Positions 1,958-15,163 of a stretch of DNA of 21,578 bases are shown here, one piece after another. Source of the stretch: a virus; IMG/VR virus record IMGVR_UViG_3300042914_002745, positions 1-21,578 of that record; one strand, written 5' to 3'. The translations under genes and the position numbers were made by a program. The notes under the pieces were generated by a model, which ran no database searches, was not told the origin of the DNA, and saw only the letters and a list, made by a program, of their open reading frames with translations. Each line of letters opens with the position of its first letter. Position 1 is the first letter of the stretch.

Positions 1958-2272
1958 ATGGCCTCCGCCCTCCAAGCCCGAAGCCCGCTCCACGTCGCCT
2001 TCGTGCGCGGGAACGACTATTCCGCGATCATCGACTTCTCGATCGCGACAACCGGCTACCAGTTCGAGGCCGAGATCTACTCGCTCACGAACGGGGCGAT
2101 CCTGGCCGAGCCGGCGATGACGAACTTCGACGCGGCCGCCGGGAAGGTCAGCCTGGTCATCACGGCTTCGGTCGGCAACACACTCCCGATCGGGACGCTC
2201 GGGCTCCGGATCCGCTGGATCGCCCCGGGCGTCCGCGACGTCCTCGGGGGCACGTGCGAGGTACTCCGGTGA
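1958..2272 (+). CDS. Probable phage structural protein, fibre-module N-terminal partner
   Basis: The product has 104 residues and an alternating hydrophobic pattern expected of a beta-sandwich: [50 protein letters not shown] and a final CEVLR. There is no signal peptide or catalytic motif. It resembles the small beta-rich proteins encoded next to tail fibres or baseplate receptor-binding proteins in other phages, but I cannot assign a named family. It is the first gene after copy 1 of the late-region element, 19 nt downstream of it, and its stop overlaps the GTG start of the fibre gene by 4 nt, so the two are probably made together. An adaptor or neck role for the fibre is inference. Confidence 0.7.
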
Positions 2273-3528
2273 GCGACATCCAGGTCGAGATCAAGCCGCT
2301 CGAGGTCCAGGCGACCGTTTCCGGCGGATTCGGCCCGCAAGGGCCGAAGGGCGATACGGGCGACCAAGGCCCGGCGGGGGCGACAGGCCCGCAGGGGCCG
2401 CAAGGTGTGGCCGGTGCGACCGGAGCCACTGGCGCGACCGGGGCCACAGGCCCGCAAGGCACGAAGGGCGACACGGGAGACACGGGGCCGCAAGGCCCGG
2501 CTGGTGCGGCTGGTGCTACGGGTGCCACTGGTGCAACCGGGCCGACAGGCCCGCAAGGTGCCACCGGCCCGCAAGGCCCGCAGGGCGATCCCGGCGTCGT
2601 GTCTGCCACGGCTCCGATCACCTACGCGAGTCAGACGGTCGGCATCTCGGTCGGCACTGGCCTGGCGACCTCGGGCGGCTCGCTCGTGTTGGCATCGCAC
2701 AACCACTCCGCAGCCGACATCACATCCGGCACCGTCGCCACGGCAAGGCTCGGCAGCGGGACGGCTGACTCTACGACGTTCCTGCGGGGCGACGGGGCAT
2801 GGTCCGCGCCTTCCGCGAGCGTCACCTACGCCACGACGGCACAGGCGCAAGACCTCACCGCCACGGCGGTTGCGATGAACCCCGCGAATGTGCGGACGGC
2901 CATCCGGTCGTTTGTTCGCGTGCCATACAACAGTAACTTTACAGCGAATGGCGGTACCGTAGCCAGTAATAACAACTTACTGAGTAGCCAACTGAACGGC
3001 AACTCTAGCGCCAACGGAACCGCCGTTACATACCACGCTTCAAATAGTTTCAGCGGAAGGGTGCGGCAGGGGTTTAATTGGTCGCTTCCAACTGCCTTCA
3101 ACATGGCAATTATTCGCCAGACTTGCCCGGCTACTGGGATTCTGCGGGCCTTGTTTGGGTGCATGGCAACCACTTTTGCGTGGACATCGCTAGACGGTCG
3201 CGGCTTCGGATTTGAAATCCGTCAGTCACGCATCTGGGTAATCGTTCACAACGGAACGACGCTATCAACCGTTGACAGCGGAATCGACACTTTTACAGGC
3301 GACTACGCATCAGAAATTATTGATGTGTGGATTCGCTCGGATGGAGCCGGAAACGTGACGCTTACGCGGTCGCTCAACGGTGGCGCTGCCGTCAGTTTTA
3401 CGACCACTGGCGGGCCTTCTGTGACTACCGTCGGAACCGCCGTTACAGCATGGGCTGGCGTCAACAACGGCGCGACGGCTAGTCCCACATGGTTTTTCTT
3501 CACTCCGCATCTGGTGTCCGTGCAATGA
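2269..3528 (+). CDS. Tail fibre with collagen-like shaft
   Basis: The 419-residue product starts at GTG 2269, overlapping the previous stop by 4 nt; the frame is open much further upstream, but that part is out-of-frame shadow of other genes. A short N-terminal beta segment ([16 protein letters not shown]) is the likely virion attachment point. Residues 22-108 are 29 uninterrupted Gly-X-Y triplets, a collagen-type triple-helical shaft. Then follow repeats typical of phage fibres ([19 protein letters not shown], then [12 protein letters not shown]), and a C-terminal beta-rich domain of about 220 residues rich in Asn, Thr and Ser, presumably the receptor-binding tip. From about 2920 the DNA is clearly AT-richer with different codon choice, suggesting that the tip was exchanged separately from the shaft. 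The neighbouring fibre-assembly chaperone supports the call. Confidence 0.88.
2332..2595 (+). repeat. Collagen-like Gly-X-Y coding repeat
   Basis: Twenty-nine consecutive Gly-X-Y triplets run from G22 to G109 of the fibre. The commonest triplets are GPQ and GAT, with GDT/GPK types near both ends, so related 9-nt units (for example GGCCCGCAA) recur. Copy number could change by slippage or recombination and alter fibre length. There is no interruption of the glycine periodicity. Confidence 0.9.
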
Positions 3529-3985: not shown

Positions 3986-4281
3986 TGCCAACACGCATCG
4001 AGCGATGGAGGCCGCCTGTTCACCTGAAGGCCAAGCCTACGAAGGAGCGGGCACACTACACGTCGAAGGACTGGCGAGCCCTGCGGAAAGAAATCCTCGT
4101 TCGAGATTCTTACCGATGCCGCAGCTGCTCGCTCGTGTGCTACGGGCCGGCGGCCCACGTCGATCACATCGTGCCGCTCGAGGAGGGCGGGACCGATGAC
4201 GAGGGCAACCTCCAGGTGCTGTGCGAGTCGTGCCACGGCAGGAAGACGCGGGCGGAGCAGCGGAGGCGGGGCGTGTTGTGA
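3985..4281 (+). CDS. HNH endonuclease of packaging region
   Basis: This 98-residue HNH nuclease shows HYTSKDWRALRKEILVRDSY, then C45-R-S-C48, the core AAHVDHIVPLEEGG with D60-H61, N75 in EGNLQVLC, C80 and C83, and H84. The four cysteines would hold a structural zinc, and H61, N75 and H84 form the beta-beta-alpha metal site. Short HNH proteins next to terminase genes are required for DNA packaging or genome end cutting in several cos-type siphophages, including HK97. ATG 3985 overlaps the previous stop by one base (TGATG). Here it is separated from the terminase genes by a methyltransferase. The HNH family is clear; a role in packaging is inference from position. Confidence 0.9.
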   Translation: MPTRIERWRPPVHLKAKPTKERAHYTSKDWRALRKEILVRDSYRCRSCSLVCYGPAAHVDHIVPLEEGGTDDEGNLQVLCESCHGRKTRAEQRRRGVL

Positions 4282-4433
4282 TGCGAAAGACGGCGAAAAT
4301 CGCGTCGACCGGGGTGGATCGCGCCAAAAATGGGCCTTTTCGCCCAGAGCCCCACGCGACCTCTACGCGAGTTTCCGGAGGTTTTGCTAGGGGGGGGTCG
4401 CGCTCGACTCAGGAGCCAGGACATGTATGGTGA
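4281..4433 (+). CDS. Doubtful 50-aa frame between HNH and methyltransferase genes
   Basis: An ATG overlapping the HNH stop by one base opens a 50-codon frame beginning MRKTAKIASTGVDRAKNG, then Arg/Ser/Gly-rich sequence without recognisable motif. It overlaps the chosen methyltransferase start. The region contains a small inverted repeat TGGGC/GCCCA (4331-4346) and a run of eight G, which look more like leader or regulatory DNA than coding sequence. I list it because the junction mimics the other coupled genes here, but coding is uncertain. Confidence 0.25.
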   Translation: MRKTAKIASTGVDRAKNGPFRPEPHATSTRVSGGFARGGSRSTQEPGHVW

Positions 4434-5685
4434 GCCCATGAAAATCCGTGACCGCGTCCGCGAACTACGCCGCGTCCGGGCCGGCGACCTGACGCCGAAC
4501 CCGAAGAACTGGCGGACCCATCCGAAGGCCCAGGCCGACGCCCTCCGCGGGATCCTGGCCGAGGTCGGCTACGCCGATGCCCTGCTCGCCCGCGAGCTGC
4601 CAGACGGGTCGCTGATCCTGGTCGACGGTCACCTCCGGGCCGAGACCACGCCCGAGCAGGAGGTCCCGGTCCTGGTCCTCGACATCGACGAAGCCGAGGC
4701 CGACAAGCTGCTCCTGTCCCTCGACCCGCTCGCCGCCTTGGCCGAGACGAACGCGGTCGCCCTCGACTCGCTCCTCCGCGAAGTCGACACCGGGAGCGAA
4801 GGGCTCCAGCAGATGTACGCGGACCTGGCCGAGGCGGCCGAGCTTTACCAGGACGACGCGAAGGAGATCGTCGAGGACGAAGTGCCCGAGCCGCCTGTCG
4901 ATCCGATCACGAAGCCGGGCGACCTGTGGACGCTGGGCGATCATCGCCTGCTCTGCGGCGACTCGACGAAGGCGGAGGATGTCGAGCGGCTGATGGCTGG
5001 GGCGAAGGCGGATCTATGGCTGACGGACCCTCCCTATGGAGTGGCATACGAGTCGGCAGGCCGCAGAGGCAAAGAAAACCAGCATGATGAAATCGAGAAC
5101 GACTCACGACCGCTTGATGAGATGGCGAAGTTCTGGGAGCAAGCGGCAACGCTGGCATATTCGTCGTGCAGCGGCTCGTCTTCGTACTACTGGTTTGCCT
5201 GCCAAGGGGGCGATCAGATGATGATGATGATGATGAGCATATCCCGTGCCAAATGGCGCGTTCGTCATGAGTTGATATGGGTGAAGGATCAGATGGTTTT
5301 TGGCCGCTGCGACTACCACTACAAACACGAGCCGATCCTGTACGGATGGAAGCAAGACGGGACGCACGAATGGAACGCAGACCGAAAGCAGGTCAGTGTG
5401 CTGGAGTTTGATCGACCAAAGAGATCCGACGAGCATCCGACCATGAAGCCGGTCGGCCTTGTGGCCTACCTCCTTGGCAACAACACGACCAGCGGCGATT
5501 CGGTGCTCGACACCTTCTGCGGCTCCGGCACCACGCTCATCGCCGCCGAGCAGCTCGGCCGCCGTTGCTACGGGATGGAGATCTCGCCGGCCTACTGCGA
5601 CGTAATCGTGAAGCGGTGGGAAACGCTGACCGGCAAGAAGGCGACACGGGAGGAGGTGAATCGTGGGAAAACGCGGACCGCGTAA
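4423..5685 (+). CDS. ParB-like domain fused to beta-class DNA methyltransferase
   Basis: A 420-residue protein. Residues about 15-120 look like a ParB/Srx N-terminal domain: DLTPNPKNWRTHPKAQ, GYADALL, ILVDGHLRAE and VLVLDIDEAEADKLLLSLDP. This is followed by an Asp/Glu-rich linker and LWTLGDHRLLCGDS, which begins the methyltransferase. The catalytic motif IV DPPYG is at 202-206, and the S-adenosylmethionine motif LDTFCGSGTT lies near 362-371. Motif IV before motif I marks the beta class, which methylates N6-adenine or N4-cytosine; DPPY favours adenine. Start ATG 4423 has AGGAG 7 nt upstream; ATG 4438 is an alternative. Codons about 207-345, including six consecutive methionines, are AT-richer than both flanks, as if the recognition region was swapped. 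Such fusions are common beside terminase genes. Self-protection from host restriction is the likely role. Confidence 0.88.
   Translation: MYGEPMKIRDRVRELRRVRAGDLTPNPKNWRTHPKAQADALRGILAEVGYADALLARELPDGSLILVDGHLRAETTPEQEVPVLVLDIDEAEADKLLLSLDPLAALAETNAVALDSLLREVDTGSEGLQQMYADLAEAAELYQDDAKEIVEDEVPEPPVDPITKPGDLWTLGDHRLLCGDSTKAEDVERLMAGAKADLWLTDPPYGVAYESAGRRGKENQHDEIENDSRPLDEMAKFWEQAATLAYSSCSGSSSYYWFACQGGDQMMMMMMSISRAKWRVRHELIWVKDQMVFGRCDYHYKHEPILYGWKQDGTHEWNADRKQVSVLEFDRPKRSDEHPTMKPVGLVAYLLGNNTTSGDSVLDTFCGSGTTLIAAEQLGRRCYGMEISPAYCDVIVKRWETLTGKKATREEVNRGKTRTA
5218..5235 (+). repeat. (ATG)6 microsatellite in methyltransferase gene
   Basis: Six perfect ATG units encode six methionines between motif IV and motif I of the methyltransferase. 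Being trinucleotide, length change would keep the frame and only alter the recognition-region loop. Confidence 0.9.
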
Positions 5686-9357: not shown

Positions 9358-10374
9358 ATGGAACCGCTCGTCGAACGTCGCTATCTCCTGATCGAGGACT
9401 ACCCGGACGCGTTGCGTGTGGCCCGCCGGGACGACAACGCCCCGCAGATCGGCGGCGTCTCTCCTCCGTGGGACTCGTGGTCAAACGACCTCGGCGGGTT
9501 CAAGGAGCGATTCCTGCCGACCTCATTCGATGACCTTCTCGACCCGTCTGGAGTGCTGCGTTCAAAGATCGACGTTCCGTTCCTGTTCAACCATGATCCC
9601 AACCTGATCACGGGTCGGACGTCAAACGGGCGGCTTGAAGTGCGACGCGGAGACAAGGGGCTGGAGTACGTCCACTCTCCGCTCCAGACGACGCACGGCC
9701 GCGACCTCGTGATGATGGTCGAGGACCGCACGATCAAGGCGGCGTCGTTCGCGTTCACCGCGCACCAAAAGGGCGACGTCTGGGAGGAAGACGAGCGTGG
9801 TAACGTCACGAGAACCGTGACGCGGGTCTCCGGCCTTTACGACGTTTCCGCAGTCGTGTACCCGGCGTATGGAAAGAGCTCCGCCGCGCCGCGTTCGCTG
9901 CCGCTCTGGAAGTACGCCCGGAGCGCGATGGCCCACCGGGCCGAGTCTCGCGGCCTCACGATCTCCCTCGACTTCGACGGCACGTTCACCGCGGCCCCCG
10001 GGCTGTGGCGGTCGTTCGTCGCCGATGCCCAGGCCCGCGGTAACCGGGTGGTGTGCGTCACGCGACGCGAAGACAACGAGGAGAACCGGGCCGCCCTGCG
10101 GACCGCGTTCGGGGATCTCCACGACGAACTTGCCGGCGTGCTGCTCGTCGGGCCGGACCAGCGGAAGCGGTCGGCCGCAGCGGCCGCCGGCATTTCGGTC
10201 GACATCTGGGTCGACGACTACCCCGAGGGGATCGTCGAGCCCGCCCAGGCCGAGCCAGCCCGGGCCGCCCCGCGCGGCGTGAAGGTCTCGACGCTCGCCG
10301 GTGCCCGGGCCGCCGCGGCGGCCGCCGCCGCCCGGATGCGGATCGCCCTCAGTTCCACGGAGGCCTCCCGATGA
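9358..10374 (+). CDS. Prohead protease fused to HAD-like phosphatase domain
   Basis: A 338-residue protein with two domains. Residues 1-190 match the HK97 prohead protease family (U35): SPPWDSW, FKERFLPTSFDDLL, FLFNHDPNLITGRT with likely catalytic H79, LEYVHSPLQTTHGRDLV, IKAASFAFTA with likely catalytic S130, and YDVSAVVYPAYG. This enzyme cleaves scaffold domains during capsid maturation. Residues about 200-295 carry every HAD-superfamily motif: motif I D205-F-D207-G-T209, motif II T235 in VCVTRR, motif III K270, and motif IV D286-D287 in WVDDYP. HAD enzymes are usually phosphatases using an aspartyl-phosphate intermediate. The remaining tail is Ala/Arg-rich. The fusion is continuous in one frame with even codon usage. 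It is unusual; most prohead proteases are 150-250 residues. Start ATG 9358 is 1 nt after the portal stop. Confidence 0.88.
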   Translation: MEPLVERRYLLIEDYPDALRVARRDDNAPQIGGVSPPWDSWSNDLGGFKERFLPTSFDDLLDPSGVLRSKIDVPFLFNHDPNLITGRTSNGRLEVRRGDKGLEYVHSPLQTTHGRDLVMMVEDRTIKAASFAFTAHQKGDVWEEDERGNVTRTVTRVSGLYDVSAVVYPAYGKSSAAPRSLPLWKYARSAMAHRAESRGLTISLDFDGTFTAAPGLWRSFVADAQARGNRVVCVTRREDNEENRAALRTAFGDLHDELAGVLLVGPDQRKRSAAAAAGISVDIWVDDYPEGIVEPAQAEPARAAPRGVKVSTLAGARAAAAAAAARMRIALSSTEASR

Positions 10375-10742
10375 TTTCCGCCGCCCCTGTGACCGTCGCC
10401 GAGCACCTCGACGGCGGCCTGCTCGCGAAGATCAAGGCGTTCGTCGAGACGGCCAAGTCGGCCGCCGCCGACGGACTCACGTGGGCCGAGTTCGGCGACC
10501 TCATGCTCGCCCTGCTGCGGCTGGTGATCGCGGGCCTCGACGTCGCCAACGGCCTGACCGGTGCCGCGAAGAAGGCCCTCGCCCTGGAGGCGGTCGCGAG
10601 CCTGTTCGACGCCGTGGCCGATCGGGCGGTCCCGCCGCTCGCCTACCCGATCTGGGTCCTCGCCCGGCCCGCCGTGCGGGCGCTCGTCCTGGCACTGGCG
10701 TCGGGGGCCGTGGAGCAAGTGCTGCCGCTCGTGAGGCGCTGA
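10371..10742 (+). CDS. Unknown helical protein, first gene of cassette
   Basis: The 123-residue product starts at an ATG overlapping the previous stop by 4 nt. It is almost wholly helical: LLAKIKAFVETAKSAAADGL, WAEFGDLMLALLRLVIAGLD, then an Ala/Leu-rich C-terminus with YPIWVLARPAVRALVLALAS that could be an amphipathic or membrane-seeking segment. There is no catalytic motif. It opens a run of eight overlapping or nearly abutting genes that includes clear membrane proteins and two protease-like genes. A role in membrane association, for example as a holin-like partner, is conceivable but not shown. Confidence 0.7.
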   Translation: MISAAPVTVAEHLDGGLLAKIKAFVETAKSAAADGLTWAEFGDLMLALLRLVIAGLDVANGLTGAAKKALALEAVASLFDAVADRAVPPLAYPIWVLARPAVRALVLALASGAVEQVLPLVRR

Positions 10743-10743
10743 A

Positions 10744-10998
10744 ATGCTCGACAACGTCCGGCTGCTCGTGGAGTGGGCTCCCCTGCTCGGCTACGCCAAG
10801 CGGCTGTCGGCGGCCGTGGATGACGGCGGCCGGGCCGACACGATCGCCGACGCGATCGAGTGGCTCGCATCGAAGACCGGCAACCGCATGGACGACGAGC
10901 TCGCCCGCCTCGTGGCGGCCGTGCTGCACACCCCGCAGGGCGCGGCCCTCGCGGGATGGATCGCCGACAAAGCCGCCGACATGGAGAAGACCCAGTGA
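10744..10998 (+). CDS. Small helical protein of unknown function
   Basis: The 84-residue frame starts 1 nt after the preceding stop and its own stop overlaps the next GTG by 4 nt. It is predicted helical and amphipathic (MLDNVRLLVEWAPLLGYAKR, TIADAIEWLASKTGNRMDDE, LARLVAAVLHTPQGAALAGW), with no membrane span strong enough to call, no cysteines and no known motif. Coupling to the neighbouring genes and codon use typical of the window support it as a real gene. Its function is unknown. Confidence 0.65.
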   Translation: MLDNVRLLVEWAPLLGYAKRLSAAVDDGGRADTIADAIEWLASKTGNRMDDELARLVAAVLHTPQGAALAGWIADKAADMEKTQ

Positions 10999-11231
10999 AC
11001 TACGTGACCCTGGCCCAGATCGTGATCGCCGTCGGCCTCGTCGGCTACGGCGTGGTCGTGGGTGTGCAGCAGCTCCGCGGCCGGCTTGGCCGGCGGACAC
11101 GGACGCCGGTGGACGATCTCCGCCTGGTGATCGACCTCGCGGCCCGGCTCCGGGACAAGGGGCAGACCGACGCCGTGGCCGTGTGCGAGCAGCTGACGCA
11201 CGAGCTGCTGAAGCCGGAGGCCAAGGCGTGA
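10995..11231 (+). CDS. Small membrane protein, single N-terminal span
   Basis: A 78-residue protein begins at GTG 10995, overlapping the previous stop by 4 nt. Residues about 4-23 form one hydrophobic span (VTLAQIVIAVGLVGYGVVVG), followed by a basic stretch QQLRGRLGRRTRTP that should stay in the cytoplasm, and a soluble helical tail (DDLRLVIDLAARLRDKGQTD). The topology of one span followed by positive charges and a helix is shared by some phage spanin-like or pinholin-like proteins, but nothing specific identifies it. It sits in the cassette with two protease-like genes. Membrane location is well supported; the role is not. Confidence 0.65.
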   Translation: MNYVTLAQIVIAVGLVGYGVVVGVQQLRGRLGRRTRTPVDDLRLVIDLAARLRDKGQTDAVAVCEQLTHELLKPEAKA

Positions 11232-11596
11232 GGCCGCTCGCCTTCATCGCCGCCGGGCTTCTCCTGCTGACGCTGCCGCGCGTCGAGGGGTGCCGCGTGG
11301 ACACGAGCGGGTCCGCGACGGCGGCCGTCTACGTCTATGAGAAGGACGACGGCGGCGTGCCGCCGTTCGTGACCGTGGCGATCAACAAGCTGAACCGCGA
11401 GCGGAAGGTGGTCGCCACGCTCCTCGAGGCCGACACGACCGACGGGACCGGCGACGTTCCCGACCAGTACCAGGCCGCCCTGGATGCGGCCCGCAAAGCG
11501 GGGCTACCGGCGGTTGTCGCCCTCGCGGGCAGGACGGTGATCCGGGTGACGCCGCAGCCCGCGAGCGAGGCGGCGGTGATGGAGGCCGTGCCGTGA
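11228..11596 (+). CDS. Exported thioredoxin-fold-like small protein
   Basis: The 122-residue protein begins at GTG 11228 (4-nt overlap). Residues 1-22 look like a signal sequence: MRPLAFIAAGLLLLTLPRVE, then GC. The cysteine at 22 could be a lipid anchor, but VEG is a poor lipobox, so ordinary export is equally possible. The rest (VTVAINKLNRERKVVATLLE, VPDQYQAALDAARKAGLPAV, VALAGRTVIRV) has the strand/helix order of a thioredoxin-like fold, with GLPAV at the place of the cis-proline loop. There is no CXXC motif, so no redox activity is claimed. It is directly upstream of a papain-like gene and may assist exported partners. Fold assignment is inference. Confidence 0.55.
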   Translation: MRPLAFIAAGLLLLTLPRVEGCRVDTSGSATAAVYVYEKDDGGVPPFVTVAINKLNRERKVVATLLEADTTDGTGDVPDQYQAALDAARKAGLPAVVALAGRTVIRVTPQPASEAAVMEAVP

Positions 11597-12474
11597 TCAT
11601 CGACCCGAAGCTGATCGACGTCTTCCCGGCCGAGCACGACGGCTACCCGGCGAGCCTCGCGATCGAGGACACGCCCGACGCCCTCCGCGACGCCTGCGGC
11701 TCCGCATCGCGGGAGTTCCCCAAGGCCCTGTGGATCGAGCCGCGCGACTGGATCGCGAAGGCCAGAGAGAACGACGCGGCCATGGCGTGGGGCATCAACT
11801 TCATTGACCGGTTCACGAATCAAGACCCGACCCACGAATGTACGTGCCACTCGCTCCGGGTGAACGTCGAGGCCGCCCGCAACCGGGCGCGGGGCGTGAA
11901 CTACGGCGGGCCGCGGAAGGACTACCGCTACCCAGAGTCTCGCGAATTCGGGGCCGTCTGGCTGTCGCCGCTGTCCGTCTACGCGGAGGCCAACCCGCGG
12001 CAGTGGGGTGGGGCAAACGTCCGCCGCGTCCTGGAGATCGCCGTCCGACGCGGGATGCTCCCCGAGACGGTGCAGCCCTACGACTACCAGTTCCGCCACT
12101 CCCTCCACGGCACGACCGGCCGGGGCGGGTTCAACCAGGCCCGCGGCCCGTGGACGCCGGTCTCGCGGTTCCCGGCCGGGTGGGAGGAGACGGCCCAGTG
12201 GTTCCGCCCTTTGGAGGTGATCTTCCCGGAGAGCTACGAGCAGGCCGTGTGCCTCGTGCTCCACGGCTACGTCGTCTCGGTCGGCCGCAACGGGCACGCG
12301 GTGCCGTGGGCGCGGTGGATCCCAGACCAGCGGCTCATGGCCTATCCGGACTCCTACGACATCGTGCGCTACGACTCCGAGCGGACCGCGAAGTCGGCAT
12401 GGGAGGGATCGTTCGCCGTGGCGAGCGTGACCCTCCCCGATGACTGGAGCCGGCCTGCCGGGCGAAACCCATGA
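11593..12474 (+). CDS. Papain-like (C1-type) cysteine peptidase-like protein
   Basis: A 293-residue protein beginning at GTG 11593 (4-nt overlap). The segment FTNQDPTHECTCHSLRVNVE mirrors the papain-family active-site pattern NQG....C..HA: N76, Q77 as oxyanion-hole glutamine, and C83 six residues later as nucleophile, the same Q-to-C spacing as in papain. A downstream NGHAVPWARW supplies the candidate catalytic H235, and DSYDIVRYDS may replace the usual Asn-containing NSWG. There is no signal peptide. The middle contains YGGPRKDYRY and PYDYQFRHSLHG, unknown to me. It could cut peptides in the host envelope at lysis, process a virion protein, or be a structural relic with C83 replaced in function by C85. 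The fold call is moderate; substrate unknown. Confidence 0.6.
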   Translation: MIIDPKLIDVFPAEHDGYPASLAIEDTPDALRDACGSASREFPKALWIEPRDWIAKARENDAAMAWGINFIDRFTNQDPTHECTCHSLRVNVEAARNRARGVNYGGPRKDYRYPESREFGAVWLSPLSVYAEANPRQWGGANVRRVLEIAVRRGMLPETVQPYDYQFRHSLHGTTGRGGFNQARGPWTPVSRFPAGWEETAQWFRPLEVIFPESYEQAVCLVLHGYVVSVGRNGHAVPWARWIPDQRLMAYPDSYDIVRYDSERTAKSAWEGSFAVASVTLPDDWSRPAGRNP

Positions 12475-13253
12475 AATCGCCTTTCCTTGCGCTGCTTTTC
12501 GCCCTGTTCTGCGCGACCGCCGCGGCCGCCCCCTGCGGCAACTGCCACGGCGACCGCGTCGTCGGCCCCGGCCCGGTGCGGTTCGCGTGCCCGGTGTGCG
12601 ACGGCAGCGGCGAGATTCCGGACCGGCCGACAGCTCCCAAGGAATCCTTGGGAGTTGCAGCCGCCGCCCCCGGCCCCCGGCCCGCCGTCTGCCGGATCGA
12701 GTGCGGTGCCGGCCCGGCGAAGGACTGCGGGACCGGCACTCTCGTCGAGGCCCGCGACGGCCGGGCTCGCGTGCTCACCGCCTGGCACGTGATCCGCGAC
12801 GGCCGGACCTCGATCACGATCCGGTGGCCCGACGGCACGAGCGGCACGGCCCGCGTGGTGGCGTGGGATTCGGCCTGGGATCTGGCGGTCCTCTCGGCCG
12901 CCGCCCCTGCCGCCGCACCGGTGCCGATCGCAGCCCGGCCCCCGGCCGTCGGCGACCGGCTGACGCTCGCCGGCTACGGGCCTGTGCCGTTCACCTACCG
13001 CGAGGCGAGCGGCGAGGTGACCCAGTTCCTCGGTCCGACGGGCCGGCACCCCATGCACATGCTCGAGGTCCGGGCCGCCGCCCGGCAGGGCGACTCCGGC
13101 GGCCCGATCTTCAACGCCCGCGGCGAGGTGGTCGCGGTGCTGTGGGGCTCGACCGGCGGGCTGACGGCCGGCAGCCACGTGACCGAGATCCGGCGGATGC
13201 TGGGCCAGCCGGTGGCGGCCGCCGTCTGCAAGGACGGGAGGTGCGAGCGATGA
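12471..13253 (+). CDS. Secreted zinc-ribbon trypsin-like serine protease
   Basis: A 260-residue protein starting at ATG 12471 (4-nt overlap). Residues 1-20 are a clear signal peptide ending in AAAA. The mature N-terminus has two CXXC knuckles like DnaJ zinc ribbons: C22-GN-C25-HG and C40-PV-C43-DGSG. After a Pro/Ala linker comes a chymotrypsin-fold protease: GTGTLVEARDG, LTAWHVI with H106, WDSAWDLAVL with D137 (D133 less likely), and ARQGDSGGPIF with S209. Triad order and spacing fit trypsin/HtrA-type enzymes; no PDZ domain follows. It should act outside the cytoplasmic membrane. Additional cysteines at 74, 78 and 86 could be disulfide-bonded. Such a gene within a capsid operon is unusual; degradation of host envelope protein at lysis is the simplest inference. 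It could also be a host-derived cargo gene. Confidence 0.85.
   Translation: MKSPFLALLFALFCATAAAAPCGNCHGDRVVGPGPVRFACPVCDGSGEIPDRPTAPKESLGVAAAAPGPRPAVCRIECGAGPAKDCGTGTLVEARDGRARVLTAWHVIRDGRTSITIRWPDGTSGTARVVAWDSAWDLAVLSAAAPAAAPVPIAARPPAVGDRLTLAGYGPVPFTYREASGEVTQFLGPTGRHPMHMLEVRAAARQGDSGGPIFNARGEVVAVLWGSTGGLTAGSHVTEIRRMLGQPVAAAVCKDGRCER
12634..12654. repeat. 21-bp perfect palindrome inside protease gene
   Basis: CTCCCAAGGA and TCCTTGGGAG are exact inverted arms of 10 bp separated by one base. The palindrome lies in the linker between the zinc ribbon and the protease domain (encoding PKESLG) and has lower GC than its surroundings. It could be a protein-binding site or an mRNA hairpin; the 1-nt centre means an RNA stem would open a few pairs at the tip. 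Confidence 0.7.
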
Positions 13254-13546
13254 CCGACTCCGACTTCGTGTGGGCCGAGCTGGCCCGCCACCCGATCCGC
13301 CGGGCCATGCTCGGCCGCGAGCGGTGCGACGAGATCGTCGCGACGGCTGCCAGCATGTCGCCCACGGGCGGGGCGGCCGTGGCCGCCGGCCGCAACCGCG
13401 ACGACATGCGGCGGATGTGGGAGGGCCGCGTCCGCGACGAGTACGCCCAGCGGGCGGGGTTCGCGTTCCTGACCATGTTGATCATGTGGGCCATCGGGGC
13501 CGTCGTGCAGGCATTGGTGAAGAAGTGGTGGGAGGAGCACACGTGA
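13250..13546 (+). CDS. Small protein with C-terminal membrane span
   Basis: The 98-residue product starts at an ATG overlapping the protease stop by 4 nt. Residues 1-68 are soluble and charged (RHPIRRAMLGRERCDEIV, RDDMRRMWEGRVRDEYAQR); residues about 70-89 form one membrane span (FAFLTMLIMWAIGAVVQALV), followed by KKWWEEHT. A soluble N-terminal domain with one tail anchor and a short charged end suggests a protein held at the inner membrane with its bulk in the cytoplasm. It has no match I recognise. Together with the next gene, also single-span, it could form the membrane part of the cassette. Confidence 0.7.
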   Translation: MTDSDFVWAELARHPIRRAMLGRERCDEIVATAASMSPTGGAAVAAGRNRDDMRRMWEGRVRDEYAQRAGFAFLTMLIMWAIGAVVQALVKKWWEEHT

Positions 13547-13821
13547 GTACCGAGACAATCGAAATCGTCCTGCGGTCCGCCCGCGAGTTCGGCTTCCCGA
13601 TCCTCGTCTTGGCCGTGCTGCTGTGGCTCCTCCGCGAGGCCGCTCACGCCATGCACCGGACGGTCGTGATTCCCGTGGTCGACGCTCACTCGACCTTCCT
13701 GCGGCAGACGACCGCCACACTGGAGGGCCTCGGCCGCACCCAAGAGCAGCAGGCCGACACGCTCCGCGAGTTGGCCGCCGGCCAGCGCGAGATTCAGTCG
13801 GCCATCGGGCGGCTCGCGTGA
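13543..13821 (+). CDS. Single-span membrane protein with coiled-coil tail (holin-like candidate)
   Basis: A 92-residue protein begins at GTG 13543, overlapping the preceding stop by 4 nt. A short N-terminal helix (STETIEIVLRSAREFG) precedes a strong span at about 17-32 (FPILVLAVLLWLLREA); the rest is a long polar helix with heptad-like spacing (HSTFLRQTTATLEGLGRTQE, QQADTLRELAAGQREI). One span plus coiled coil occurs in several small phage holins and in unrelated accessory membrane proteins, so the holin idea is only a candidate. It ends the cassette; the next 118 nt hold a T-run, copy 3 of the late-region element and the capsid ribosome site. Confidence 0.7.
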   Translation: MSTETIEIVLRSAREFGFPILVLAVLLWLLREAAHAMHRTVVIPVVDAHSTFLRQTTATLEGLGRTQEQQADTLRELAAGQREIQSAIGRLA

Positions 13822-13939: not shown

Positions 13940-15163
13940 ATGCCCAGCCCGAAGCTCCGCATCCTGACCGACGAGAGTGTCGCGGTCGAGAACGAGATCC
14001 ACGCCCTCCGCGCGCTCGAGCCGAAGGACGACGCCGACCGCGAGAGCATCGAAGGCCGTCTGGCCGCCGCCCAGGAGCGGGCCGCCAAGATCGCCGCCGA
14101 GGCCAAGCGCGAGGGTGACCTCGACGCCGCGATCGCGTCGATGCAGGCGGTCCGCAGCTCCGACAAGTCCCGCGAGGACGTCGAGAAGCAGTTCCGCAAG
14201 GACGAGGAGTCCGAGACCCAGCCCGACATCCGGGCCGGCGTGCGGGCTTTCCGCTCCGTGAAGGTCGCCGAGGCCGTCGGCCGCCACCTGTGCGGGCTGG
14301 CCGGCCTCAGCAAGCGGGCCATGGGCGAGACGGTGGACGGCTACGGCGACGACTACGTCGTGACCGAGCTCTACTCCGCGATCGTCAACCGGCTCCAGTA
14401 CCAGTCGGTGGCGATGCAGCTCGCCTCGATCTTCCGGCCCCGCGGCCAGAAGCTGACCCTGCCCAAGAGCGGCGACGTCACGTTCGGCTTCGCGGCCGAG
14501 AACGTGGCGTTCACCGACCAGGACATCTCGACGAGCGGTGCCGACCTGACCCTCTACGAGGGCGGTGCCTCGGTGCCGGTGTCGCGGGCTCTGCTCGAGG
14601 ATTCGCCGGTCGACGTCGCCGGCCTGGTGGTCGACCGGTTCAGCCACGGGCTCGCCCGGTGGATGGACAACGTGACGTTCGGCGGCAACACGGCCAACCC
14701 GGCGATCACCGGCCTCGCGGCCTCGGTGGGCTCGGGCAACACCGTGACCGTCGCGGCCAACGCCAACACCACGGCCGCCAACCTCGCCGACGTCGTCGGA
14801 CGGGTGGACGAGGCCATCATGGGCACGGGCGCGTGGGTCTGCTCGAAGGCCGGCTACGTCGACCTCATGAAGATCTGGGCGGCCCAGCAGACCACGATGG
14901 TGGTCGGTGGCGGCCGCGTGGTGCCGACGATCTTCGGCGCCCCGGTCTACATCGTGAAGGGCCTGCCCTCCACGACGCTGGCCCTGTTCGGTGACTTCAG
15001 CATGTCGACCGCCATCGGCCTGAAGGACACCGGGCTGGAGATCAACGTGGCCCGCGAGCTGCTCGTCCGCAGCCGCCAGGTTCTCTACGTGGCCTCGACG
15101 CGGCTCGGCGTGAGCAATCACGGAAGCGAGTTCGTCGGTCGCCTCGCCAAGGCCACGACCTGA
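13940..15163 (+). CDS. Major capsid protein, HK97 fold, with N-terminal delta domain
   Basis: A 407-residue capsid precursor with a ribosome site GAGGTAA before ATG 13940. Residues about 12-95 are a charged alpha-helical coiled coil (VENEIHALRALEPKDDADRE, AAAQERAAKIAAEAKREG), the delta/scaffold domain expected to be removed by the prohead protease. The mature part has GYGDDYVVTELYSAIVNRLQ, LPKSGDVTFGFAAENVAFTD, SRALLEDSPVDVAGLVVDRF, AWVCSKAGYVDLMKIW and ALFGDFSMSTAIGLKDTGLE, the landmarks of HK97-type shells (Phage_capsid family). Its own copy of the late-region element lies 65 nt upstream and a strong hairpin follows the stop, consistent with very high expression. The order protease, then capsid, is interrupted here by an eight-gene insertion. 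Confidence 0.95.
   Translation: MPSPKLRILTDESVAVENEIHALRALEPKDDADRESIEGRLAAAQERAAKIAAEAKREGDLDAAIASMQAVRSSDKSREDVEKQFRKDEESETQPDIRAGVRAFRSVKVAEAVGRHLCGLAGLSKRAMGETVDGYGDDYVVTELYSAIVNRLQYQSVAMQLASIFRPRGQKLTLPKSGDVTFGFAAENVAFTDQDISTSGADLTLYEGGASVPVSRALLEDSPVDVAGLVVDRFSHGLARWMDNVTFGGNTANPAITGLAASVGSGNTVTVAANANTTAANLADVVGRVDEAIMGTGAWVCSKAGYVDLMKIWAAQQTTMVVGGGRVVPTIFGAPVYIVKGLPSTTLALFGDFSMSTAIGLKDTGLEINVARELLVRSRQVLYVASTRLGVSNHGSEFVGRLAKATT

Follow-up and report, generated by a model that had tools for sequence, protein, structure and literature searches.

A horizontally exchanged cassette with a papain-like peptidase in planctomycete phages: a probable lysis module

The eight-gene cassette

The DNA analysed, called the window throughout, is a 21.6 kb IMG/VR virus record (IMGVR_UViG_3300042914_002745, positions 1 to 21,578). 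Its GC content, by 1-kb window, is 61–74%. A late operon runs from left to right through the small terminase, large terminase, portal, S78 prohead protease, eight small genes, HK97 capsid, head-completion, tail and tape-measure genes. The eight small genes, here called cA to cH, form the cassette under study (10371–13821). They lie on the plus strand, as do the S78 prohead protease gene on the left (9358–10374; PF04586, 4.4e-27) and the gene of the HK97-fold major capsid protein on the right (13940–15163; PF05065, 3.7e-24). An earlier note, made from the sequence alone, had singled out this block as a set of membrane proteins and proteases inserted between protease and capsid genes, and all eight genes are found where it had placed them. 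Coupling is tight. Seven of the eight start junctions, that with the protease stop included, are 4-base ATGA/GTGA overlaps: cA starts within the stop of the protease gene (ATGA overlap), 1 base lies between cA and cB, and 118 bases separate the cassette from the capsid gene. The note had seen no muramidase, amidase or transglycosylase in the window, and profile scans of the window likewise found no canonical muralytic family.

Five of the products are small. cA (123 aa, 10371–10742) is helical and features one or two hydrophobic segments, weaker than those of cC, cG and cH; the gene is missing from some cassettes. cB (84 aa, 10744–10998) is soluble and helical, is found in the same order in related loci, and features a hydrophobic segment in 0 of 49 relatives. 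cC (78 aa, 10995–11231) has an N-terminal transmembrane segment followed by a conserved soluble tail, cG (98 aa, 13250–13546) a C-terminal transmembrane segment, and cH (92 aa, 13543–13821) an N-terminal transmembrane segment and a coiled-coil-like tail. The hydrophobic segment is kept in 48/50 relatives of cC, 55/55 of cG and 48/50 of cH. The claim that at least three small proteins (the genes starting at 10995, 13250 and 13543) are membrane-associated is thus borne out, with weaker segments also in the gene at 10371. Size and topology of the small membrane proteins fit a holin, and cC and cH are holin-like candidates on these features.

cD (122 aa, 11228–11596) bears a predicted export signal. 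Its AlphaFold model (pLDDT 85) has the order beta-alpha-beta-alpha-beta-beta-alpha, and thioredoxins make up nearly all of the 50 Foldseek matches listed. The thioredoxin-like fold and the export proposed in the note are both supported. The CxxC active site is absent from the cD alignment, and a thioredoxin redox function for the protein in the version carried by the window was therefore rejected.

cF (260 aa, 12471–13253) matches PF13365 (5.1e-21), and its best PDB relatives are DegS/HtrA proteases. The His-Asp-Ser triad and four cysteines are invariant in 57/57 distinct relatives, in line with the secreted trypsin-like protease that had been proposed, export being predicted from the sequence. 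cF shares the trypsin fold and the triad with the periplasmic DegS/HtrA proteases, and DegS is its nearest solved relative; it differs from them in having no PDZ domain, in its N-terminal motif, and in being phage-encoded and replaceable. The motif, a zinc-ribbon-like, DnaJ-like CxxC..CxxC at residues 20–45, is invariant in 57/57 relatives and is possibly a zinc or redox switch. None of the cassette proteins matches a spanin family; the exported cD and cF could serve as spanin replacements.

The peptidase cE

The largest product, cE (293 aa, 11593–12474), has no signal peptide. Q77, C83, H235 and D253 (in Asp253-Ser-Tyr) are invariant in 58/58 distinct relatives. The oxyanion Gln, the catalytic Cys and the His occur in the order and spacing found in papain, and H235 sits in the sequence GHAV. 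The distance of 6 residues between Q77 and C83 is that of papain. Comparison by hhalign with C1-like proteins encoded in planctomycete chromosomes gave a probability of 97.4% (E=1e-11). In this alignment Gln, Cys and His are matched and Asp253 faces the Asn of NSWG, a motif kept in the aligned relatives in G221 and G343. A diverged homolog in a planctomycete prophage (G504) passes the Peptidase_C1 cut-off (PF00112, 7.7e-10), and its best PDB matches are solved cysteine proteases. The papain-like protein of the earlier note is upheld by the invariant residues and the profile match; on this sequence evidence cE is classed as C1-like, short of a proven C1 member, and it is the putative lysis enzyme of the cassette.

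Exchange of the cassette between phage cores

Related loci were collected as the best 80 per search, and the counts below are not a census; genes outside the window were called with a simple script. cE is found at 70–100% identity in >100 IMG/VR loci, and no match to it was found in the GenBank phage collection. Order and strand of the cassette genes are identical in 104/104 related loci, some of which are overlapping fetches of one contig. Apparent violations of the order were artefacts of stop-to-stop frames, and none is seen with start coordinates. Of the 75 loci that extend far enough to either side, 67 have all eight genes, and cA alone is missing in 6.

The cassette adjoins at least three unrelated phage cores. 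Type I cores, as that of the window, have the arrangement terminase, portal, S78 protease, cassette, HK97 capsid. Type II cores feature a lambda-type portal, a Mu-gpT/Phage_capsid_4 protein and a gpA-type terminase, with the cassette among head-tail connector genes. In type III cores the cassette follows the tail module, and a further core (type IV) was found in one 59 kb genome. Of the DNA that aligns between different core types 98.9% falls inside the cassette, against 47.5% within one type. Between a type I locus (L010, HK97) and two type III loci (L011/L012) the sole match measures 3615 bp (88.5%) and corresponds to the cassette to within about 10 bases. Core type has to switch 13 times along the cE tree (minimum possible 3), a number that the starred branches alone do not force; the argument for exchange rests therefore on the DNA boundaries. 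Conservation as a unit next to different phage cores, a check that the note had proposed, is thus found, and the cassette is a real, horizontally exchangeable unit.

The cassette is interrupted in five loci (L006, L014, L015, L028, L032) by an insert of ~1.25–1.34 kb between cD and cE, which is ~42% similar to the DNA methyltransferase of the window. A collagen-repeat fibre gene is found at 2269–3528 of the window (PF01391, 2e-13), and similar fibre genes occur also in cassette-bearing phages of other core type.

Alternative and diverged modules

Searches with type I capsid and portal proteins yielded 86 loci carrying the capsid along with portal or protease, which represent 53 distinct capsid C-termini. 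cE is found in 47 of them and an alternative module in the remaining 39; each locus carries one of the two and only one. In all 39 the alternative module lies between cA, which is retained in each, and the capsid gene, at the same site as the cassette (L174, L199, L211, L256, L270, L168, L171, L182 and L266 are examples). In the loci read, it encodes a 188-aa membrane protein, a ~370-aa papain-like protein, a ~85-aa membrane protein and a ~100-aa cysteine-rich protein. The last is also membrane-associated and carries a CDCGQTC..CxC motif. The ~370-aa protein, predicted to be exported, has an N-terminal signal anchor and invariant papain motifs (Q97, C102, H269, NSWG). It matches no Pfam family, and hhalign scores against cE (E=0.03) and the C1 protein of phage THSA-485A (E=0.06) are non-significant, so that the protein is called papain-like by its motifs alone.

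Diverged modules were found in planctomycete chromosomes (G343, G221, G499) and in prophage or phage contigs (G492, G504, G606). They share the layout small transmembrane protein, exported protein, papain-like peptidase, exported protein, transmembrane protein. A small membrane protein and an exported thioredoxin-like or other protein precede the peptidase; an exported protein, a coiled-coil membrane protein, or both follow it. In G343, G221 and G499 the place of cF is taken by an exported thioredoxin with a CxxC site (Thioredoxin_2, 9e-9 in G343). The small proteins and cD gave non-significant hhalign scores with their counterparts in planctomycete chromosomes, save for a weak cG match; what is shared with the diverged modules is thus the papain-like peptidase, by homology, and the architecture, in terms of position and topology. 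The trypsin-like protease is missing from alternative and diverged modules alike, and cF is therefore not a constant part. In the type I cores sampled, trypsin and thioredoxin folds are optional and the papain-like peptidase is constant. In G343, G221, G499 and G504 the module is located directly upstream of the terminase genes (TerS/TerL), which is the position of the lysis genes in lambda.

The chromosomal modules of G343 (L131/L132), G221 (L133/L134) and G499 (L151) are part of a phage cluster made by cassette, TerL, portal, protease, capsid and tail genes. These clusters reside near the same host gene for an RRM RNA-binding protein, and no integrase or replication genes were seen nearby. 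They may represent a domesticated prophage passed on vertically, or an element resembling gene-transfer agents, that has retained the papain module. The terminase of a planctomycete prophage (Zavarzinella) has been placed close to RcGTA-like terminases (PMC7947584).

The prohead protease next to the cassette (9358–10374) carries a HAD-like domain at its C-terminus (residues ~200–313, ISLDFDGTFTAAPGLWRSF; PHROG 4919/4256), which is retained also in relatives carrying the alternative module.

Hosts and the search for other lysis genes

A scan of GTDB genomes gave one match, in a 40 kb contig of a metagenome-assembled genome (MAG) of the Planctomycetaceae (G001). The contig combines a tyrosine integrase and a whole phage with genes of bacterial origin (MFS/acyltransferase, phytoene-desaturase-like), and is therefore regarded as carrying an integrated prophage. 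Diverged versions reside in genomes of the same order as the MAG, and a search of the order started from either genome gave an identical set. The planctomycete hosts suggested earlier are thus supported by an integrated relative. In the G001 prophage the cassette holds nearly all small membrane or exported proteins of the phage.

Two related genomes carry exact terminal repeats (127 bases in G006, 123 in G009) and were taken as complete. Their non-cassette proteins of at least 60 aa, compared to all Pfam families, include no muralytic or holin family (three weak G009 families were not displayed), and a Pfam scan of G002 gave the same result. The canonical endolysin that the note had suggested looking for elsewhere is thus not found in two complete related genomes. 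Amidase_2, Phage_lysozyme, CHAP, M23, SLT and M15_4 were found in 0/25 related records, with positive controls; nine of the 25 come from the type I capsid and portal searches, and the majority of these nine carry the alternative module.

G009, a type II phage (L126), encodes a lipid-desaturase-like protein, a PQ-loop membrane protein and a GDSL lipase, at 4276–5072 and elsewhere. These may be envelope-modifying genes.

A lysis module as the probable role

The module is presumably late, exchanged as a block and apparently essential, and it is found in genomes that carry no recognisable lysis gene. A host-adapted lysis module is therefore the best explanation. We estimate at roughly 60% the probability that the eight genes make up a self-contained module by which temperate phages of planctomycetes lyse the host and release virions, and which can be exchanged horizontally. 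We infer that it would act as follows. Late in infection cC, cG, cH and perhaps cA would build up in the inner membrane and breach it. cE, which has no leader and is the equivalent of an endolysin in this scheme, would then reach the envelope and cut the peptide or protein cross-links holding the wall, be they those of peptidoglycan or of envelope proteins. Outside the membrane, the exported cD and cF would prepare or finish lysis by unfolding or cleaving envelope proteins, instead of spanins.

The canonical holin-endolysin-spanin cassettes (lambda S-R-Rz/Rz1) offer a close parallel. They too are compact late modules, made by small membrane proteins, a wall-directed enzyme and exported helpers, and are exchanged between phages; the diverged planctomycete versions moreover immediately precede the terminase genes, the arrangement seen in lambda. 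In contrast to the lambda genes, the planctomycete cassette has no known muralytic domain and no recognised holin or spanin. It encodes no enzymes beyond a C1-like cysteine peptidase and, in the version of the window, a DegS-like serine protease, and in the phage of the window it resides between protease and capsid.

Papain-like enzymes have been met elsewhere in phages. C1A (xylellain-type) papain genes are known in Caudoviricetes (PMC10380794). In THSA-485A the C1 gene (Tsac_2838) adjoins a GH25 endolysin, and the endolysin of Alicyclobacillus phage MMB025 joins a C1 domain, a glycoside hydrolase and a peptidoglycan-binding domain in one protein. Both belong to the same peptidase superfamily as cE, and in both phages the peptidase lies in or beside a lysis enzyme; no glycoside hydrolase or GH25 endolysin accompanies cE, which differs also by its Asp-Ser-Tyr variant and by lying below Pfam detection. 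Papain-fold cysteine peptidases act as lysis enzymes against unusual walls also in the papain-family N5 domain of mycobacteriophage Lysin A (PMC3314691) and in the C71 pseudomurein endoisopeptidases PeiW/PeiP of methanogen phages, which cut wall cross-links (PMC10318531). These families are different from that of cE.

Several observations weigh against a lysis role or against cE as its enzyme. None of the small cassette proteins matches a known holin family. In cE the Asn of the NSW motif of papain is replaced by Asp253 in 58/58 relatives; the cE profile has no PF00112 match at E up to 10 and no relevant match in the PDB, so that its link to C1 peptidases is carried by intermediates. Confidence in the cE model is low (pLDDT 57); its top Foldseek matches, procathepsin B and phage Peptidase C1A, as most of the others, have the papain fold, and all are non-significant. 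No C1A peptidase is known to cut peptidoglycan. The site between protease and capsid in type I cores is unusual for lysis genes. A diverged muralytic enzyme may have been overlooked by Pfam. Finally, the peptidoglycan of planctomycetes is sensitive to lysozyme, and a normal endolysin would thus have been possible.

As to the substrate, the note had assumed a protein-based wall, which is only partly backed. Planctomycetes have peptidoglycan sacculi that are broken by lysozyme (Jeske 2015, PMC4432640), against which stands an older report (PMC3035269, citing Liesack 1986) of an SDS-resistant, cysteine-rich envelope made by protein and stabilised by disulfides. Release of virions by proteolysis, as the note had proposed, stands insofar as lysis centred on a protease is the best remaining explanation; the protein wall is unproven. 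The exported thioredoxin in one version and the proteases in all would suit a disulfide-stabilised protein envelope. We hold it as a tentative idea that planctomycete phages lyse their hosts by proteolysis of such an envelope rather than by a peptidoglycan hydrolase, using a C1-like peptidase and exported partners that, according to the version, are trypsin-like or thioredoxin proteins.

It is possible, if less likely than not, that cE is instead a cryptic peptidoglycan endopeptidase or amidase, a sub-case of lysis in which a new enzyme family would perform ordinary murein lysis. Peptidoglycan cross-links would be just as plausible a target, in keeping with what related papain-fold enzymes do: CHAP, NlpC/P60 and C71 proteins cleave wall cross-links (PMC10318531), the N5 domain of Lysin A is of the papain family (PMC3314691), and the hosts do have peptidoglycan (PMC4432640). 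However, by sequence cE is nearest to C1-like proteins that show HAI and NSWG motifs, a diverged homolog is a true Peptidase_C1, and no wall-binding domain is found in cE.

The two alternatives raised by the note itself, superinfection exclusion and processing of virion proteins, fare less well on the evidence. According to the former, the genes would be a moron serving exclusion, lysogeny or host modification, whose membrane and exported proteins remodel the surface of the host or break down the proteins of incoming phages. In its favour, small membrane proteins, proteins destined for export and horizontal transfer are typical traits of morons, and the integrases denote temperate phages. This reading is nonetheless unlikely: the module is not sporadic, since 86/86 type I core loci carry the cassette or a papain-containing substitute; all genes lie on the late structural strand and are translationally coupled to the head protease; and complete genomes would be left with no recognisable lysis function.

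Also hard to sustain, and in our judgement improbable, is a role in the virion or in head maturation, with peptidases that mature proteins of the capsid or of ejection, or that travel in the particle for use at entry. The location in the window, flanked by prohead protease and capsid, and that among head-tail connector genes in type II cores, would suit it. But the same cassette is found with HK97/S78, lambda-portal/Mu-gpT-like and other cores, and in type III at the end of the tail region; being exchanged across unrelated cores, it cannot fit one capsid. The export signals on cD and cF are moreover unsuited to assembly in the cytoplasm.

Chance clustering or mis-called frames can be dismissed: high GC yields many spurious open reading frames, but the unit recurs in >100 viral loci and all eight frames are protein-conserved in tens of distinct relatives with dN < dS, a ratio obtained by simple counting, biased by high GC, and used to show constraint and nothing more.

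Significance for planctomycete biology

Lysis of planctomycetes by phages is not described in the literature searched. Whether peptidoglycan, protein or both bear the load in the planctomycete wall has been disputed for decades. A phage may serve as a probe of the wall, as the enzyme that it cannot do without names the load-bearing bond. With a module exchanged as a block between unrelated phages, a papain-like peptidase that is constant in the type I cores sampled, and genomes in which no endolysin is recognised, the question can be put to the test with few genes. Lysis of a protein wall, if true, would have no counterpart among described endolysins. If the genes do form a lysis module, they would add a new enzyme class to those used in phage lysis, and provide tools to break open planctomycetes.

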